A DNA stretch of 64,000 nucleotides. It comes from Lichina pygmaea. Lineage: Eukaryota > Ascomycota > Lichinomycetes > Lichinales > Lichinaceae. The translations under genes and the position numbers were made by a program. The notes below the pieces were generated by a model. That model saw nothing but the letters and a program-made list of their open reading frames with translations, did no database searches and had not been told where the DNA came from. The DNA is taken from assembly GCA_963422465.1 (NCBI GenBank), contig OY730169.1, positions 4,154,001 through 4,218,000 of the forward strand. Direction: 5' to 3'. Shown in pieces: positions 33,346 to 43,113 of this stretch (the first letter of the stretch is position 1; every line of letters begins with the position of its first letter).

Positions 33346-33526
33346 CAGGTTAAAGGTGTTTTATTTTATTTTATTTTATTCTTACTCTGATTTGGCTGGT
33401 GAGCCATGCAGAACTTCTAGATACATGCTTTTTTTTCCCAGAAAACCTTTGAAGGAATAAAAACTGAGACTTGGGTAAGACTAGGGAATTATCTGGAAGA
33501 ATATGCAGTGTCTGGAGAAAATAAAA

Positions 33527-36025
33527 TCACAGAGATGATAGGTTTTCTGGTAAGAGTTGGTGTGCTAAGTTAAACTGGTCTAGTCTTTTCAAAGACATAA
33601 ACCAGAGAAGAAATTCTTTAAGCACTTTAGGCTTTTGAAGTAAAGTAGAGAAATTGTAGGAAAGAAAAGTGGCTTGCTGTCTTTGAGTAAGAAACTTGTT
33701 ACAAGAGAAAGTAATATGTTGAGCAGTCTCTTCTCCAAAACCACAGGAACATAGAGGGGATTGGAAGTCAGGAACATTTGCTCTGAAAAGAAAGCTGGCT
33801 AGTCCTATCCTTGCTGATAGAATCTGCAAGTAAAGACTAGCTTCAGCTTTTCTCAAGTCTTTGAAAACTTTGAGATTTTTCTTTTGGGGTAGTCTGCAAA
33901 ATAGCTCCCAGACTGAAGAACATTTCTGTCTGTTTGCCTGCCATCTGGCTTCCCACTCTTTCTGAAACACTTCTTGAAATTGTTTCTTAGAGTAATCTTG
34001 GTTAGTGGTTAGTTCTTCTAGCCATCTTGCTTTCCAGTTAGGTGTGATAGTAGACAGAGACTTTGGAGGTGTTCTCAGAGTAGAAACAAAAACAGTGATC
34101 TGGGAAAAGAGCTTATAGAGAAGTGAGGAGAGAGGATTAGAAGAAGTATTGGAAAAATAGAAAGATTGTAGGAAAGTTGCTGTTCTAAATTTGAAATAAA
34201 GATCAAGAGGTGGTAGGAATAGTTCTCCTTCAATAAGAAATGTAGGAGTAGCTTTGAAGACACCTCCTATAGTTTTTAGACACTTAGTCTGGAAAAGATT
34301 TAGAGAAGAAATATTAGAAGGTTTTTTGTGGGGATTGAACCAGACTCCTACTGCATAGCTGAGAAGTGATCTCAGTATTGCAGTGTAGACAAGTCTAGCA
34401 GAGAGGACAGGTAGACCCCATGTAGAAAAAGTAGTTCTGGAAAGTGCTGAGAAAAACTTGGAAGCTTTCTGTAATATGATTTTCTGGTGTTTTTTCCAGA
34501 GAAGCTTGGAATCATAGTGTAGTCCCAGAATACGCACTTCTTCCTTAGGCTGTAGTACCACTTCTCCAAGTCTTAGACTGAGCTGAAGATTATCTGTTCT
34601 TCTTCTAGAAAAATGGAGAAGTTCATACTTTTCAGGTGCAAACTTCATTCTGTTGCGGTCCGTACCGTACCGTCCTATCCGAGTATAGGATTAGGGCGAG
34701 AGGCGGAAGGCGGGTTGGTTCTCGCAGGAGAGGAGTGTCAAGGAGCGCGAAGGGGTTTGGTGGAACGTGGTGGTGGTGACACCTGATCAACGGCTTCGTA
34801 CAAAAGGATTGTATTGAAGTAGATCTAGTTGTCTGGATCACAACATGAGTTGAAGACGATCGTTCCATAGGGGAACTATCGCCAGACTATATAGTGCCCA
34901 GTTCGTGAGCAGAGTGAGCTCTGCTCACTTTGCTCACTCGGTGAGATAAGTGAGCTCTGCTCACTTTGCTCACTTTTCATGCACGCTGCGGCGAGCTGGG
35001 TGAGCTCTGCTCACTTTGCTCACTTGTTCGTGCATATGCATGCTGCGGCGAGCACCCCCTGGTTTGTCTCGCCGGTCACGTGACCGGTTCCCGTGTCACG
35101 CTGTCTGGTACTTCTGTCCAGTATCCTGTCTGCTGCTTTCTGTGAGTATATAAAGACCGTGTTCCTCCTGGGTCGTAACACATTCCATGTTTTCTTGCCC
35201 AGTCTAAACACTTGGAGTGAGTAGACTTTAGCTTCAGGAGATTGCTTTTAAGAGAAGGGGAAAATGCCAGAAGGTTTGTGTCATCTGCAAAGCCCAGAGC
35301 TGATACACCTTTCTCTGGTGTATGAACAGTATTATGAAGATCTGAAATATAGAAAAGAAATAAAATAGGAGAGAGAGGTGAACCTTGAGGGACTCCACAG
35401 TGTACTGGAAAAAAAGAAGACTCTGAATCATCAAAGACAAGAGAGGTTTTTCTTTGGGTAGTGAAAGAAAAGATCCAGTTAACAAACCAGCTGGGGATTC
35501 CTTTTCTCTCCAGGATTTTCTTGAGAATTTCTGGCAGAACTCTATCATAAGCTCCTGAGATATCCAGAGAAAGAAGACTCGCTACCATTCCTTTCTTCCA
35601 GACTTTTTCAACTTGGGAAGTGAGTAGAAATAGTGCAGACTCAGTTGATCTTCCTTTTCTAAAGCCCATCTGGATTTCTGGTAGTAGGTTTTCTTTCTCA
35701 GCCAGTTCACTTAGCTTTGTGGCTGCCAGAGCTTCCATCAGCTTCCCAATTGTGTTGAGAAGTGCTATTGGCCTCCAAGCTTTGGCATAGCAATAGGATC
35801 CTTTGCTAGGCTTTCTCAAGCATATTGTTCTGGCTGCTTTGTATCTGTCAGGGAAATATTCTAGCTTCCAGCAGGCCTCCAGAACTTTGGCTATCTTTTC
35901 ATTGAAAGAGTCTCCTAATACCTTTAGAAATCCATTGGGTAGAGTGTCTTTCCCAGGAGCTGTAAAAGGTTTTTTCTTTTTCAGAATATTGTGGATATCT
36001 TCTTTGGAGATTTCCTGAGATAGCT
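33527..36025 (-). pseudogene. LINE-A ORF2 fragment (reverse transcriptase to C-terminus)
   Basis: This is the reverse transcriptase and C-terminal part of the same ORF2 as at 4668-7274, truncated at its 5' side. It reads from about 35,820 down to 33527. Blocks visible are IALLNTIGKLMEAL, GFRKGRSTESA, LDISGAYDRV, CGVPQGSPLSPILF and GFADDTNLLAF. After the solo LTR come KFAPEKYELLHFSRRR, SYAVGVWFNP, GGVFKATPTFL and the final CSCGFGEETAQHITFSC. Here the catalytic FADD and PQGSP boxes are both present, unlike in copy 2. The endonuclease and the ORF1 part are missing, so the copy is not autonomous. No frame disruption other than the LTR insertion is obvious in this part, so it may be younger than copy 2. 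Confidence 0.85.
34651..35180 (-). mobile_element. Solo LTR (Gypsy type) inside LINE-A, fossil
   Basis: 530 bp, TGTTGCGG...GTAACA, with the 5-bp duplication CATTC (34646-34650 and 35181-35185). Its first ~240 bp match the Gypsy LTRs at 7379 and 11902 closely. The middle is different and carries repeats of AGTGAGC and GCTCACT. Near the end a TATATAAAG box precedes the CA end, as at the Gypsy LTR TATA position. It is the remnant of an element lost by recombination between its LTRs. The orientation follows the Gypsy LTRs. Confidence 0.9.
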
Positions 36026-36039
36026 GGTGTTGTTGGTGG

Positions 36040-37174
36040 TTGGCTGGCTGGCCACAGTTGAGCTATGCCGAGGCATAGCGCAGAGTCGACATCCCGTGCA
36101 GGGTCTCTGCCACGCTTCCCCGCAGTCCTGAGGTCTTTTGCGCTCCGCCGTGTACGCTCACCCCTAGGTCCTGCTTCGGAGCGCCGGGTTGCCAGCCCGG
36201 AGCCCACGCTCCAACTGCAGTTTGCTCCTTGAGCCCGTCATTTGCAGCCTGAGCCTGCACTCTGTACGGACCGGCATGCGCTTCCGTCCTCTCGGGCCAT
36301 ATAGACAGTCTCGTAGTAGGCCCAGACCCTACTGCCGTCACTGCCATTATATGCCACGCCCCGCAGCTCTCGCTGTTTCGCGTTATCTCTGTAGATCTCT
36401 CGTACAGAGGCCGACCATGCCTCGCAGGCTCTACGGACCCTGCAGGCCATGCCAGCACCTGCAGGACCGCCTTTCCAGCCCACTAACCAAGTAGGGAGAA
36501 GTCTCCGTCTGCCCGCTGTCGCCTGTGGGACCCCGGATGTACGTGGTGGCCCACTGGAGAACCTCCAGTGCCCTAGCCCCGGTCCGTAGGTGGCCCGAAG
36601 AGAATCCGTGGCAAGACCTTAGGCAAAACCATCAAGCCAGCACTTTGACTATCACACGGCCCTTAGGTACTGGAGCGTCGGAAACCCTTCGTGCCACCTG
36701 CTCGCCTTCTTTAACACGTAGTCCCCGTTCGATTAACAACGCCGCGGTACAGACATCGCTCCCCTCCTAGAACAAGATCCTCGATGCATCAGCTGCTGGA
36801 GACTCTGCCAGAAGGGGGGTGTGCGATAGGAACTCCTCTCGTCTACTCCAGAGGTGCCCTGTCGGGTGTCTAGACTTCACATCCACCAGTTGCAAGGCTG
36901 GCTTCGGGCCGTAGCGTACACGGTAGACATCCGTCGGGTGGTTTTCATAACCAGTTTGGTCGAAGTCCTCTGTTCTGCTGATGTCGCTTCACGGGGGCGT
37001 CCAGGGTGCCTGCACGACACCTCCGGTGGCCCGTCGCTCCACGGGCACCAGCAGCTCGACCGGTGACTCAATTAGCTCTCGGTGCAGCGACTACAAGCAG
37101 CTTGGGAGACTGCCTGCCATCGCTGCCCCGAGGTTCCCAGCCTGCACCGCGTGGAGGTTTGAGTCTTCGCAGGC
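36040..37174 (-). repeat. Module W, copy 1 (5' half of chimera 1)
   Basis: About 1.13 kb, colinear with 40,486-41,596. It starts GGCCTGC at the 5' end, as copy 2 does, and both copies end their shared sequence near CTGTGGC. A short conserved reading frame (36238-36483) contains VGWKGGPAGAG-like, ACEAWS and NAKQ segments that are also readable at 40777-41064. No known domain. It resembles, in size and behaviour, the WEIRD module of the Magnaporthe MINE element; that comparison is from memory and concerns architecture, not sequence. Confidence 0.75.
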
Positions 37175-37185
37175 CAGGTTAAAGG

Positions 37186-37573: not shown

Positions 37574-38840
37574 TCATGGATGGCAGAAGGATAGGATTTC
37601 GTCAAGCCAGATCCGAGAAGCAGCGGGGAGGCGGGGGCCTACGGATTTGGTGTGGACTAGGACGGCAAAGGCATGCGGGAGGTAAGCGTTGCAGAGACTC
37701 CAGTTGTCCGAGTTCGGGTTAGGATAGAGCTTCCAAACGGTCTCTAAGGCAGCTGCCGCCACCTTATCTGGCGATCCGTAACGGACTAACCACTTGCGCA
37801 TGACTACCTGAACAAGGCGATGCAAGTCGAAGTTTTGACCGCTTCGACTTCTGGAGATGAGGGAAAAGGCTTGGAGAACCCCGAGGGCTTCTCGTCGATG
37901 TTTCAAGTCGGTCTGGTGCTCTTCAAGAAAGGCTTCAGGAATTTCTTGTCGGTCGAAGAAAGTCATGAGCGATAGAAACTTTGCTGCCAGCGGGAACTGC
38001 TCTTGAATTTGACAGAATGATATCGAAAGGGTGGCAGCGACGGCGCTGGGAGCCTTCGCGTCTCGTCCGGTATCCTCGAATGGCTCGTCTAGAAGCTCCG
38101 CCCAAGTATCTTCACTTTTTTGCAGCATTTCACGGTATTCAGGAACGGAAAGGCTGTTCTCTGATATGTAGGCACCCGCCTGGACGATTGCCAAAGGAAG
38201 ATGTTGCAGACGATCCGCAAGGACGGTAAGCTCTTTATCACTAGAATCCGTCCGAGTCTTCTGACGGAGTAGTTCAATAGACTCCGTGCTATCCATCTCT
38301 TGTACAGCGATGAGGTCTTCATTTCTCGTGAATTTGACTCCGGCTTTCTTATCGCGGGTTGTCACAGGGATATGACCATGGTTGCACTCCGGAATGTATT
38401 GCTTGAGGCGGGGGTTTTGAGGAGGCTCTGGGTGGCCGTACTTTCCATTCCCGAAGAAGATCCGGCCGTCGTCCGCATTGTCGATGATCATCACCCACGG
38501 TCCAGAATCGCTCTTTAGTAGCCATAATCTGACGACCTCCAGTAAGTCTTCCTTTTTATCTTCGGTGCCTGGGATAGCACATTCCCGTGCAATCTCTGCA
38601 TAGGATTGTCGAAAGCGATCAACGCTGCCTGCGTGAACCCAGAACACGGAGGTCTCCGGATAGGTCTCTTGAATCCAGAAGGCATGCTCTATAGCTGGCT
38701 GGGATTTTCTATGACGGATCAGCATTTCATCAAGCATGTGCCGAAGGGAACCAAGATTACCCGACGCCACCTAGTCCATAAAGCGCAAGCCGCGCATGGT
38801 ACTCCTTTTGCATTGAACAACTCGGATTGACCCTTGCTCT
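37574..38840 (-). pseudogene. NB-ARC and winged-helix part of the NLR
   Basis: The best preserved part of the NLR. The exon ending at 38761 encodes EAILDKLRA...ARLALYGLGGVG. After the intron at 38709-38760 one frame stays open to 37574 (KSQPAIEHAFWIQETYPET onward). It contains VFWVHAGS, WVMIIDNADD, PVTTRDKK, HLPLAIVQAGAYI, FLSLMTFFDRQEIPE and DLHRLVQVVMRKWL. These are the order and spacing of NB-ARC, winged-helix and pre-TPR segments. The P-loop Lys and Ser are intact. The long open frame suggests that the ruin of this gene is fairly recent. Confidence 0.85.
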
Positions 38841-39034
38841 AAGCTTATCGAGGATCGCCTCACGCCCTACAAACCTCGGGTTGCGTGTGTACGGAACCAG
38901 AACTCAAGAACGACGAGGTCAGTCTCAGACTTCAAATCAGATTTCACTGTTTATTACACATCTACTCACAGTGGGGCGTCGCAAAGAACGCAATTCCTTG
39001 CGTAGCCTCTGCGACAGCCTTGTAAGTGCTATTT

Positions 39035-39456
39035 TTTGATTTGATTCTTACACTGATTCGGCTGTTAAGCCATGCAGAACTTCTTGAAGGATTTTTGTCT
39101 CTGGTAGACTTGACTCGGGGACCTCACGCATTTACCGTACACCCCGTGGTTTGTAGTGTACGTACTGTGGGAAAACCCCAAACCCCGTAGGGGAAATAGG
39201 AAAACCACAGTAATGATGGATCTTGACGGATATTGGGTGAGCAATTTCTTAAGGGTTTTCATACATCTTGCGAGGAGTACATCTTAGACAAGTTCTATGA
39301 ATCTCGGGGGGTTTTTGTGGCAGAATGTGGGGTGGGTCAGATTCGAACTGACGACTAGTTTAGTCAGGTTCTCCAGGCCTAACACCACTAGTTCCGGGTC
39401 ATGGGTGCCACGTAGTGGGAAACTCTCACCAGCTTCCCGCTACACCATGCCGCCCC
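39035..39456 (-). mobile_element. tRNA-derived SINE, copy 2 (3' part of chimera 2)
   Basis: Same element as at 13293-13740, very similar along its length. It begins GGGGCGGCATGGTGTAGCGG directly after the A run and ends with the LINE-A type tail. It keeps the A box, the B box and the T arm. It has no target duplication of its own at the junction with the A run. The duplication is shared with the H2B part. Confidence 0.9.
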
Positions 39457-39472
39457 TTTTTTTTTTTTTTTT
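39457..39472 (-). other. Poly(A) tract at the H2B / SINE junction
   Basis: Sixteen T on the plus strand, that is, 16 A at the end of the H2B 3' UTR. The tract is followed immediately by the first base of the SINE. Confidence 0.9.
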
Positions 39473-39670
39473 CGCTCGGTCTGGAGGTTTGATTGTGTTT
39501 ATACAGGGTTATCATAATCTCTCAAGCCGACCCAGCTCAGAGAAACCATTGCACCGGAAAAGCGACTCCCCTTCCCATAGCACGTCATACCAGAGATAGA
39601 AAAAGGGAAGAATGGAAAACCTAGGAAGCCTAGGCCACTTGAGTGCACATTACCAAAGGCTAGCCACAAT

Positions 39671-41596
39671 TGATTGATTGATTGAATTCCTACACCATTC
39701 TAGCGCTAGTGTATCTAGGCTACACTGGGTCAACTATAGAATTAGGCTAGGAAAACTCAACCGAGTAAAAAACCTCTCCCTGCAGCGCCTCAGGCAGCGC
39801 TAACCTCTCAAGTAATCTGTAGAACATGGGGGGTGACTGGTTAGTAACCAGTATCCAGCTGCTCCTGAGCCCAGGAGAACTGGGAGAGAACTCCGTGGTG
39901 TAGGATCCACGAGGTGAGGGTGGCGGTGGGCCGCGGGCGCAAGATCATCACCTGGTAGTCAGTAGTAGCAGTGGCAGTGTAAAGACTGGCGTACTCACTG
40001 CAGGTGTGGGCACTCTAGAACAACATGCTTGGCAGTCTCCCACTGTGCTCCGCAGCAACAAGCTGGTGTCAGGAAGCCGGGGACTCATCACCTGCAGAGG
40101 AAGGCTGCCAGCCCAATCTTACCTGTGTGCACCTGCGTTAGGATGCTGCTTTGGGCCTTGGATAGGCCGGCGCAAAGCCGGAGGGATGCCTGATACAGCA
40201 TCTTGTCTGGCTTCCACTTGTCTCCCCCTCCAGGGTCGGGGTCCAGCAGCTGGACTTGAGGTGGGGGTCCACCATGGAGCTTGTGCCATCGCTCCCAGCA
40301 CCATTGCTCCGATAGCAAGCGGGCCTGCCAGACTGTTCGTGGGGGAGTGCCTCAGGGTGGGGTGGCTGTGGGGTGGCTGTCAGCCCACGGGGGCAGGCCC
40401 AGAGACCCCTCAGTGGATTCCAGTGGCCGCTGAGGCCAGAGGATTGACTCTGCCCAGCGGTGTCACACCTGGCCTGGTGCCACAGTCGTACTATGCCAGA
40501 ACATAGTGTAGAGTTGGCACCCCCCCACAGGGTCTCTACCACGCTTTCCCACAGTCCTGAGGTCTCTTGCACTCCGTTGTACGTGCTCACCCCTGGGATC
40601 CTGCTTCGGAGCGCTGGGTCACCAGCCAAGAGCCCACGCTCCAACTGTAGTTTGCTCCCTGAGCTCGTTGTTTGCAGCCTAAGCCTGCACTCCGTACGAA
40701 CCAGCATGCACATCTGTCCTCTCAGGCCATATAGACAGTCTTGTAGTAGGCCCAGGCCCTACCTCCATCACTGCCATTATATGCCACGCCTCGCAGTTGT
40801 TAACTGTTTTGCGTTACCTTTGCAGATCTCTCGTACGAAGGCCGACCATGCCTCACAGGCCTTACGGACCCTGCAGGCCGTGCCAGCACCTGCAGGGCCG
40901 CCTTTCCAGCCCACTAACCAAGTAGGGAGGAGTTCTCCTTGGTCCGCTGTCGCCTGTGGGGCCCCGGTTGCACCTGTTGGCCCACTGGATAACCCAGTCC
41001 CCTGGCCCCAGATTGTGGATCGTACAAAGAGACTTTGTGGCAAGGCCTTAGGCAAAACCATCAAGCCAGCACTTTGGCTATCACACGGCCCTTAGGCACT
41101 GGAGCGGCGACGTCTCCTCGTACGACCACTCTCCTTCTTTAACAGGTGGTCCCCGTTCGATTAACAATGCCGCGGTGCCAAGGCCACTCCCCCCCTAGCA
41201 GATCCTCACGCGTTAGCTGGAGACTCTGCTAGGAGGGTGACGTGACGAGAACTCCTCTCGACTACTCCAGAGGTGCCCTATCAGACGCCTAGACTTCACA
41301 TCCACCAGCTGTGGGGCTGGCTTCGGGCCGTAGCGTACACGGTAGTCGTCTGTCGGGTGGTTTTCATCTCCCAAGCTTGGTCGCAGTCCTCTGTTCTGCT
41401 GTAGCTGTTTCACGGGGGCGTCCAGGGTGCCTGCGCGACACCTCCGGTGGCCCGTCGCTCCGCAACACCAGCAGCTCGACCGGTGACTCGATTAGCTCTC
41501 GGTGCAGCGACTACGAGCAGCCTGGGAAGCCGCCCGCCATCGACTGCCCCGAGGTTCCCAGCCTGCACCACGTGGAGGTTCGAGTCGTTGCAGGCC
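39671..41596 (-). mobile_element. Chimeric or internally deleted LINE (module W + LINE-B 3' end) nested in the H2B 3' UTR
   Basis: 1,926 bp bounded by the 13-bp duplication GGCTAGCCACAAT (39658-39670 and 41597-41609). The 3' half (39671 to about 40,485) encodes the C-terminus of a Tad-type ORF2: AKSSILTQ-type sequence near 40,130, HTGKIGLAAFL, then PGFLTPAC and a Cys-rich end in a second frame. Its tail is a TCAA repeat (GGAATTCAATCAATCAATCAA region). This LINE differs from LINE-A and is called LINE-B here. The 5' half is module W copy 2. W begins with the same GGCCTGC as in chimera 1 and gives way to the LINE at nearly the same point. Confidence 0.85.
40486..41596 (-). repeat. Module W, copy 2
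   Basis: Colinear with 36,040-37,174 over its whole length, with many substitutions and small indels. A short frame (40777-41064) shares VGWKGGPAGAG, ACEAWS and GNAKQ with copy 1. It ends near CTGTGGC, where the sequence changes to LINE-B. Confidence 0.8.
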
Positions 41597-41644
41597 GGCT
41601 AGCCACAATGACGCCCCCGGAGAGAAGGAAAAGAAAAAGAAATC

Positions 41645-42065
41645 TCATTTCGCCGAAGACGAGTACTTGGTAACCGCCTTGGTGCCTTCCGAGACCGCGT
41701 GCTTCGCGAGCTCACCCGGGAGAATCAATCGGACCGAGGTTTGAATCTCTCTAGACGAGATGGTCGACTTCTTGTTGTAGGCTGCAAGCTTGGAGGCCTC
41801 GGTAGCAACACTCTCGAAGATGTCATTGACGAACGAGTTCAGAATCGACATGGCACGGTTCGAGATACCGGTGTCCGGGTGCACTTGCTTGAGCACTTTG
41901 TAGATGTAGGAAGAGTATGTCTCCTTCCTCGCCTTGGTTCGCTTCTTCTTCTCGCCCGACGCGGCTGCCGTCTTTTTGCCGGCCTCCTTCTTCTCGGCTG
42001 GTGCCTTTCCGGCGGGGGCCTTGCCCGCGGTCGTGGTGGGCTTCTTCTCGGCAGCGGCTTTGGGA
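41645..42065 (-). pseudogene. Processed retrocopy of histone H2B
   Basis: A continuous frame [12 protein letters not shown]...[16 protein letters not shown]...KYSSSAK-stop, matching fungal H2B from the third residue to the end. It has no introns. The insert starts with TCCCAAAGCC, so the cDNA ended a few bases after the ATG; the start codon is lost and no in-frame ATG replaces the N-terminus. No internal stop is present. One conserved histone-fold residue differs: [10 protein letters not shown] where H2B has IFERVATEAS. The 3' UTR and poly(A) follow. It lies in the same orientation as the NLR exon that it interrupts, but one frame off. Most H2B genes of filamentous ascomycetes carry introns (general knowledge), so this is a copy of an mRNA and the real H2B gene should lie elsewhere. 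Confidence 0.92.
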
Positions 42066-43113
42066 GTAAGTGCTATTTAGCTTAGCCTCGACTAAAGCCT
42101 GGAGAAGATCAGCTGCGTGTTATCGCAAGTCTCAGTTCAACTGCCGGCTTGAACGTATATGGCATATGGCGTACCTTTTTTACAACAATGCCGCCGAGGC
42201 TGTGACAGACGAATAGAAGAGGCCTTTTTTCTGCATCCTTTGCAACTCACTGTCAGCGGTGTGAGCTACAAAGCAGCAGTGAAGATCTCTCATACCCTTC
42301 GCTTCCACTTTAACTTATTGAGCAAATTCCCGGCCTGTTCCTCCACGCCGGCGGTCGACGACTCGAACGCGAGGTTTGCGTTGTATCCGAAAAGGAGCAC
42401 CCTGCTATGAGGTAGATCTTTTGGAAGGAAGTCCCGTAGCCACAGCATGCCTCCGGCGGTCTATGTTGTCTCCGCGTGTGACTCGATCCCGGTGGGATTG
42501 AGCCCGTGCACAGCAACAATGCTTTGGAGTCGCGCCGTCAGCTCCCGGCCCCGAAATCGACACCAAGGAGGAAATGGTGTCGGCCTCGCGGAGGTTGCTT
42601 CTAGGGTTACTCGTGGGATCCTGGGGAATCCTGAGAACAGCTTTCTCGAAGCATTGAGATCGAACTCGTGGTAGCGAGCTTGCAGGGCCTTTCGTTCCCC
42701 CTTGCTCGCAACGGCATACTCGGCTAATGGCAAGAGATTGGATATGACGTTCTCATAGTCCGACCCTCCGGCGCTCTCGAATTTGCATATCGTGTTGTGG
42801 TCGGCGTCCATCAAGATCCGTTCTTCCCGTGTGCCAGGGAGACCGAGGGTTGCCGACTTCATATCAACGACCTAGAAACGGTTAAGATTCGCCCAATGAT
42901 CTCTGGTTTGAAGGCTTACGATTCCGAAATTCTATTCATTGGATTAGAATTTGCTCGGCATACTTTCATGGGTCAACTTACAAGGCCATGTTTACGCAGA
43001 GGGAGCGTTTCGTAGAAACTTAGCACACTGTGATCCCTTGTGAGAACTTACTCAAGGTTCGGCCATATCGGTTCGACAATCACCTTCAGAAAGTCTCGCT
43101 CTATCTTCGCCAT

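Follow-up and report, generated by a model that had tools for sequence, protein, structure and literature searches.

A spliced, polyadenylated histone H2B messenger RNA (mRNA) and a full-length short interspersed element (SINE) were very probably copied together into an exon of an NLR-type gene of Lichina pygmaea by machinery of the LINE-A type (LINE, long interspersed element), with the SINE RNA serving as the first template and the poly(A) tail of the H2B mRNA as the landing point of a jump; a second chimera would later have entered the H2B 3′ untranslated region (UTR). The insertion lies in a 64,000-nucleotide stretch of contig OY730169.1 (assembly GCA_963422465.1, 32.5 Mb in 8 contigs), which we call the window (G000:C1:4154001-4218000) and in which positions count from 4154001. 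On the minus strand, the order is target-site duplication (TSD), H2B copy (42065 to 41610), nested element (41596 to 39671), distal H2B 3′ UTR (39670 to 39473), a run of 16 A (A16, 39472 to 39457), SINE (39456 to 39035) and the second copy of the TSD. H2B, A16 and SINE all lie on this strand, directly joined and in the same orientation. By its structure, the H2B-A16-SINE chimera is real and well supported, and it represents a known mechanistic class in an unusual combination.

One duplication around the whole block

According to the first-pass annotation, a single 13-bp duplication bounds the entire block, and the H2B/SINE junction has none. Both points were confirmed. Exact repeats lie at 39022-39034 and 42066-42078, and a repeat check of the block found no duplication at the A16/SINE junction. 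That annotation had also described the block as the product of one event. This holds for the outer H2B-A16-SINE chimera, but about 1.9 kb inside it arrived as a separate nested insertion with its own TSD. The block consists of two nested insertions, each with its own duplication and each built from two joined parts. An assembly artefact or a chance juxtaposition is scarcely credible. The block is known from assembled sequence alone, but the chance of an exact 13-bp repeat at two fixed places is 1.5e-8 if all four bases are equally frequent, and the exon recovered when the flanks are joined is a conserved one.

The H2B copy and its parental gene

A parental gene with introns and the same 3′ UTR had been predicted, and it was found on another contig (G000:C4:1276987-1277680, with the 3′ UTR at 1276799-1276996). 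A DNA search of the same genome gave one other H2B place. All three parental introns (114, 58 and 54 bp) are absent from the window copy, in agreement with the intron-less H2B frame claimed at first pass. With the nested insert excluded, 654 bases of copy and parent align, with six substitutions and a single 2-nt deletion between them; one substitution changes a parental arginine to serine. At the very point where the window copy switches to A16, the parental locus runs on into different genomic sequence, and A16 is therefore read as a poly(A) tail. In fungi, histone mRNAs are polyadenylated, and a tailed histone copy is not odd as such.

The H2B 3′ UTR and 16 A had been described as leading straight into SINE base 1. 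The non-encoded A16 and the exact junction stand, but the stretch from 41644 to 39473 is mostly the nested 1,926-bp insert and not UTR. The true H2B 3′ UTR is about 0.24 kb long, contiguous in the parent and split by the nested element in the window. One long (2.2-kb) H2B 3′ UTR across 41644-39473 is ruled out by the contiguous parental 3′ UTR and by the insert's own duplication. The copy shares the absence of introns and the presence of poly(A) with processed pseudogenes, but its TSD is not next to the poly(A); the 422-bp SINE intervenes. Nothing in the H2B copy points to a working gene, and what we describe is one insertion, probably without function.

A Pfam histone search of the genome, with 12 candidates, gave four places including this copy; the parental H2B, split by introns, escaped it, and the search is no census of retrocopies. 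No SINE match was found in a 4.5-kb stretch around the parental H2B. A diverged (66%) relative of LINE-B, the LINE of the nested element, is found some 0.6 kb on the downstream side of the parental H2B, with which it shares its orientation (L043:529-1169, G000:C4).

SINE copies and their target sites

The SINE was claimed to be complete, and from 39456 to 39035 it has the same ends as other copies. Of 41 genomic matches listed, drawn from the best 40 of 688 candidates, 40 belong to this SINE, namely the block itself plus 39 copies at 96-97%. A match to its first 20 bases, at no more than one mismatch, is found at 137 places in the genome, 100 of which were listed. For the survey, 80 of the listed loci were fetched: every other exact match (72 of 72), and 8 of 27 with one mismatch. 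These loci held 81 SINE 5′ ends, 82 with the window, and a complete 3′ end was present in 77. The five SINEs without one are L060, L062, L070, L101 and L107. At L101, the SINE match stops at base 178 and is followed by an apparent reverse complement of the LINE-B 3′ end, probably another nested insertion.

The prediction that other copies start at the same base was borne out, as 71 of the 77 complete SINEs have a duplication within 3 bases of the SINE start. These duplications are 10-19 bp long, most commonly 13 bp (37 copies); CT precedes the duplication in 41 and its first base is A in 61. The outer TSD of the block, which sits beyond the H2B copy in the context GCT|AAATAGCACTTAC (CT before, A as first base), is typical of them in its 13-bp length and CT|A motif. 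Six complete SINEs lack a clean abutting duplication: the block, L054, L069, L077, L080 and L098. In L069, the duplication abuts with two mismatches (by eye), and in L077 it is displaced by 10 nt. L080 has no abutting duplication and no displaced copy within 3 kb. No duplication was found at L098, where the flank is repetitive (220 matches) and hence uninformative. At L054, 21 extra nt separate the duplication from SINE base 1 and may stem from a short jump onto a different RNA.

Eight A followed by the first 12 SINE bases, at no more than one mismatch, match only the block in the whole genome. Frequent A16-SINE chimeras are ruled out by this count, with the SINE start found 137 times and eight A plus SINE start once. 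Compared with the consensus of the 77 copies (block included), the block SINE has 4 substitutions in 421 positions, 8 missing columns and 1 extra column; on these counts, its divergence is similar to that of the H2B copy from its parent. The SINE had been called tRNA-derived. Neither ARAGORN nor Rfam gave a tRNA match in it, and what speaks for the label is a box A-like and a box B-like motif, recognized by eye only.

The survey also bears on the idea of two successive insertions, in which an H2B processed pseudogene received a SINE in its poly(A) tail, or the reverse. Nested insertion does occur in this block, as the 1,926-bp element attests, and the alternative is flagged in a published study (PMC4476161). 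However, a SINE entering an A-run should leave a second duplication of A of about 10-19 bp, the range in the 71 SINEs. There are just six A between the SINE's final TC and the T in the outer TSD; three of them fit the SINE unit and three the TSD, which disfavors this order. In the reverse order, H2B would have to hit SINE base 1 exactly without any duplication. We regard successive insertions as very improbable.

LINE-A and the proposed mechanism

The SINE carries a LINE-derived tail, its 3′ end being common to LINE-A of the same window. The two 3′ ends align with a score of 40; when the LINE-A end was shuffled base by base 500 times, no score exceeded 16. Because these ends match, LINE-A is the likely enzyme donor for the SINE. 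LINE-B was ruled out as donor: with a score of 13, against 40 for LINE-A, its 3′ end stays under the best of those shuffles (16), which were made from the LINE-A end. The LINE-A of the window is part of a comparison element at 33360-37175, which has a related 5′ module at 84% to that of the nested element. In its flanks, CCTTTAACCT is repeated exactly (10 bp); taken as 13 bp with one mismatch, the repeat starts at CT|A. Foreign sequence with GTGAGCAGAGTGAG-type repeats interrupts this element at about 34.7-35.1 kb.

We infer the following order of enzymatic steps from the finished structure. A LINE-A-type enzyme would nick the NLR exon at a CT|A site and prime on the 3′ end of the SINE RNA, which mimics LINE-A. 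Target-primed reverse transcription would copy the SINE to its 5′ terminus, from which the enzyme would jump to the poly(A) tail of a spliced H2B mRNA. This mRNA would be copied almost to the start codon, where copying would stop, and repair would leave the 13-bp duplication around the whole H2B-A16-SINE product. The second chimera, a 1,118-bp module with a putative hepatitis delta virus (HDV)-like 5′ fold joined to a truncated LINE-B 3′ end, would then enter the H2B 3′ UTR.

Joining at the RNA level could replace the jump. The H2B mRNA tail would be ligated to the 5′ end of the SINE RNA, and the fused RNA would be copied in one pass. RNA ligation before copying has been proposed for some U6/LINE-1 chimeras, and it would yield the same DNA product with the same exact junction between A16 and SINE base 1. 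However, Pol III transcripts carry a 5′ triphosphate, and such a SINE transcript would be a poor substrate for a ligase; this point presumes a Pol III origin and is not decisive. The varied module junctions described below (28 distinct in 29) fit jumps made while copying at least as well, which is likewise not decisive. We consider joining before copying unlikely. The LINE-made template jump from SINE to H2B poly(A), as claimed at first pass, keeps this one rival, and the structure, the parental gene and the TSD fit the jump as the best explanation.

Several observations weigh against the two-template retrocopy. The block was seen at one locus in one assembly, and the LINE-A of the window is a broken copy. 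The 5′ end of the H2B copy lies just past the ATG and the 5′ UTR is missing, while the published class of such chimeras is described as having a full-length 5′ partner (PMC2104539). Finally, 71 of the 77 complete SINEs show no sign of a jump, and an event of the H2B type would therefore be rare.

Table 1. Features of the block, its target gene and the comparison element (window positions).
Feature	Position	Strand	Evidence
Outer target-site duplication, SINE 3′ side	39022..39034	.	exact 13-bp match to 42066-42078; GTAAGTGCTATTT; minus strand AAATAGCACTTAC
Full-length SINE, 422 bp, 3′ part of outer chimera	39035..39456	-	same ends as other genomic copies
A16, poly(A) tail of H2B mRNA, joined to SINE base 1	39457..39472	-	not encoded after parental 3′ UTR
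Distal H2B 3′ UTR, including inner duplication 39658-39670	39473..39670	-	99% to G000:C4:1276799-1276996; ends at poly(A)
Inner target-site duplication	39658-39670 and 41597..41609	.	exact 13-bp match, GGCTAGCCACAAT; present once in parent
Nested element, 3′ part: 5′-truncated LINE-B with TCAA-repeat tail	39671..40478	-	relatives at 81-83% in L021, L030, L033; LINE assignment by eye from translated C-terminal-like frame
Nested element, 5′ module, 1,118 bp	40479..41596	-	3′ end GTGG + C or T in fetched copies
Putative HDV-ribozyme-like fold at exact 5′ end of nested element	41480..41596	-	RF00094, 37.8 bits vs gathering 50, model 1-89, E 0.0038; Rfam match 41598->41482
H2B retrocopy: coding sequence from just past start codon to stop at 41645, and proximal 3′ UTR	41610..42065	-	Pfam Histone 81.8 bits; three introns lost vs parent on G000:C4
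Outer target-site duplication, H2B 5′ side	42066..42078	.	exact 13-bp match to 39022-39034; GTAAGTGCTATTT
NLR exon part upstream of insertion (ALVEAK.., after predicted intron)	42079..42098	-	open spliced frame through empty site; homologues span site
NLR exon part downstream of insertion (..KAVAEATQGIAFFATPH)	38970..39021	-	open spliced frame; homologues span site
Open reading frame with NLR nucleotide-binding/DUF7779 part	37574..38770	-	Pfam PF25000
Comparison element: related 5′ module and 5′-truncated LINE-A	33360..37175	-	low end uncertain, 33356-33360; RVT_1 108.6 bits in 35076-36062

The nested chimera and its module

The nested element (41596 to 39671) is 1,926 bp long, is flanked by two copies of a 13-mer inside the H2B 3′ UTR, and is absent from the parental H2B. 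Its own 13-bp duplication and its absence from the parent mark it as a separate insertion. It may already have sat in a parental allele before retroposition, a reading that requires one extra step; a later entry into the H2B copy would account for it without that step.

Among the best 40 of 585 candidates, the module has 39 further copies at 95-98% and a more distant one at 85%. All 29 copies that were fetched (L014-L042) have a complete module with the same 3′ end, GTGG followed by C in 21 and by T in 8, and 28 different 20-mers come after it. Within 1.5 kb after the module, LINE-A proper is found in 19 of the 29 copies and LINE-B in 3. The matches of L014, L026 and L041 are confined to the foreign stretch within the window LINE-A, and L017, L022 and L025 match neither LINE. 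Several of the copies without a match to LINE-A proper or LINE-B overlap other copies further upstream, and at L029 the module runs into a second module (85%). A tRNA gene with an intron-like insert lies beside the module copy at L029:1220-1314 (minus). Both module chimeras checked for a TSD of their own, the nested one and 33360-37175, have one. As far as its layout tells, the nested element follows the plan of the MINE chimeras of Magnaporthe, with a constant 5′ RNA and LINEs cut at many points on the 3′ side. The fixed module ends and the 28 distinct junctions in 29 copies indicate that such joining is frequent in this genome.

A putative HDV-like fold at the module start

The first 117 nt of the module cover the whole HDV ribozyme model, at a score below the gathering cut-off. 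From the known position in the HDV ribozyme, we take the cleavage point to be the first base of the nested element. An HDV-ribozyme-like fold was also seen at 37060-37175 (minus), which places it at the 5′ end of the module in two subfamilies. A search of 13 further loci gave only one match at E<=1 (39.0 bits). Genome-wide, at least 85 RF00094 matches at E<=1 were obtained among the best 86 of 1,614 first-look candidates, all below the gathering score; matches below the cut-off also occur in 2 of 14 control genomes.

The full fold alignment holds 50 rows, 29 of them distinct, with L039 included and L147 (78 bp) excluded. In the 29 distinct rows, 97.2% of cells are paired, vs 29-34% when the pairing is slid. 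The P2 pair 16-107 changes from GC to AU in 12 rows, and the P2 pair 15-108 is broken in 9 of 29. In paired cells, in both-side cells and in score, this alignment exceeded all 500 shuffles; its number of pairs with both-side changes was matched by 270 of 500 and its number of pair types by 500 of 500. A first alignment, of 31 rows with 13 distinct, did not stand clear of the shuffles, 43 of 500 of which did at least as well in paired percentage and covariation score. Related sequences can outscore shuffles in this statistic without structure. A strong claim of ribozyme covariation was dropped, given two of five measures within the shuffles and a P2 pair broken in 9 of 29 rows. Altogether, the alignment suggests that the module 5′ end fits a putative HDV-like fold with some covariation in P2.

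The interrupted NLR gene

As claimed at first pass, removal of the block and one duplication restores the NLR exon in frame, spliced over three predicted introns to a stop. A 45-residue stretch around the site is aligned by 17 of 120 listed homologues, 13 of which span the junction. Four of these 13 fungal homologues are gapless (69-76%); the other nine are gapped, some near the site. The 470-residue spliced peptide contains DUF7779 and gives an NB-ARC match at 20.7 bits, below the cut-off of 23.5. Two stops lie in the same frame just upstream of the restored stretch, so another intron or decay has to be assumed. Further upstream, a hydrolase-like segment (42300-42870, minus) contains another in-frame stop, and in it a C-terminal-like piece (by eye) precedes an N-terminal-like one. 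Two homologues have 114 and 161 residues between ATPH-like and VPY/VPF motifs that are absent in the window gene. This NLR-type gene may be degenerate for reasons other than the insertion, given the in-frame stop upstream and more than 100 residues missing after ATPH.

Implications and comparison with known chimeras

The block points to what may be an uncommon way into the genome for a spliced, polyadenylated host mRNA, by means of a LINE that recognizes its own tail and with a SINE as the handle. LINEs requiring their own 3′ end should seldom make plain processed pseudogenes (PMC4476161), which would make the SINE the means of entry for the H2B mRNA. Additionally, MINE-type chimera formation, known from Magnaporthe, appears widespread in another fungal genome, and the putative HDV-like fold at the exact 5′ end of the module suggests a reason for one RNA being the constant partner. 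We offer a broader reading only tentatively, and think it rather doubtful. Strict-3′-end LINEs here would rarely copy mRNAs alone, the SINE tail would act as the entry ticket, and cellular RNAs would be reached only by jumping off the LINE's own template. The favored landing RNA would be a 1.1-kb transcript with a putative self-cleaving HDV-like 5′ end, common to at least two LINE families and perhaps a counterpart of WEIRD, and the histone mRNA would be accidental.

The first-pass annotation had proposed that a chimera of this kind was novel. Among the best-ranked matches in the open-licence literature, no published mRNA-poly(A)-full-length-SINE chimera was found, but template-jump chimeras of cellular RNAs with LINEs or SINEs are already known in fungi, flies and mammals. 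The comparisons that follow refer to the available parts of the cited articles. In mammals, U6-L1 and U6atac-Alu (14-base TSD) unite a cellular RNA with a LINE or SINE under one TSD, as here, but the 5′ partners of these small nuclear RNA chimeras are small RNAs without poly(A), whereas the window has a poly(A) mRNA (PMC4476161). For U6, 'stringent' LINEs of the L2 and RTE clades are reported to form chimeras only (PMC4476161). Mammalian mRNA-L1 chimeras likewise have an mRNA or SINE fused to a retroelement within one TSD (PMC13174262). They carry pieces of mRNA or long noncoding RNA, 15 of 17 from transcript starts and six ending at splice donors, ahead of a mostly near-full-length L1; the window instead has an mRNA 3′ end with poly(A) on a SINE (PMC13174262).

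The nested element resembles the R2/R1 hybrid SIDEs of Drosophila, in which a 5′ part with an HDV-like ribozyme is joined to the 3′ end of another LINE (PMC3414825). Those are ribosomal DNA elements with shown ribozyme activity, whereas the fold in the window is predicted from sequence, and the authors of that study favored recombination as the source of the hybrids (PMC3414825). For Drosophila R2, template jumps in vivo to U12 small nuclear RNA and to tRNA are described (PMC3414825). HDV-variant ribozymes are known in fungi (PMC5640933). The main text of that article contains no word beginning 'transpos' or 'retrotransposon', and no HDV-like ribozyme tied to fungal LINE chimeras was found in the titles and abstract openings of the best-ranked literature.

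The closest likeness is to Magnaporthe grisea, with its chimeras MINE, WEIRD-MGL, WEIRD-MgSINE and WEIRD-MgSINE-MGL (Gogvadze et al. 2007, PMC2104539). The window itself does not come from Magnaporthe: its ceramide glucosyltransferase, from 8,000 candidates scored, has at least 120 relatives, and among those listed the ones with organism names are at 53-60% and include no Magnaporthe, while the best of the others reaches 88%; this protein points to a filamentous ascomycete. These and the window block are fungal and have a 5′ RNA directly on a LINE or SINE 3′ partner in the same orientation, and Magnaporthe also shows 10-20 bp duplications and a SINE tail mimicking a LINE tail (PMC2104539). The nested module (1,118 bp) is likened to WEIRD (1,113 nt) by plan and length only (PMC2104539). 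In contrast, the 5′ partner of the outer chimera is a spliced, polyadenylated coding mRNA where Magnaporthe has a noncoding RNA, and its 3′ partner is an untruncated SINE where the Mg-SINE parts are 5′-truncated (PMC2104539). Of the features of LINE-made chimeric retrogenes (Buzdin/Gogvadze class, PMC2104539), the outer chimera shows direct joining in the same orientation and outer-only repeats, and it lacks a full-length 5′ part and a 5′-truncated 3′ part. With a full-length SINE as its 3′ part, it is therefore best placed as a variant of that class.

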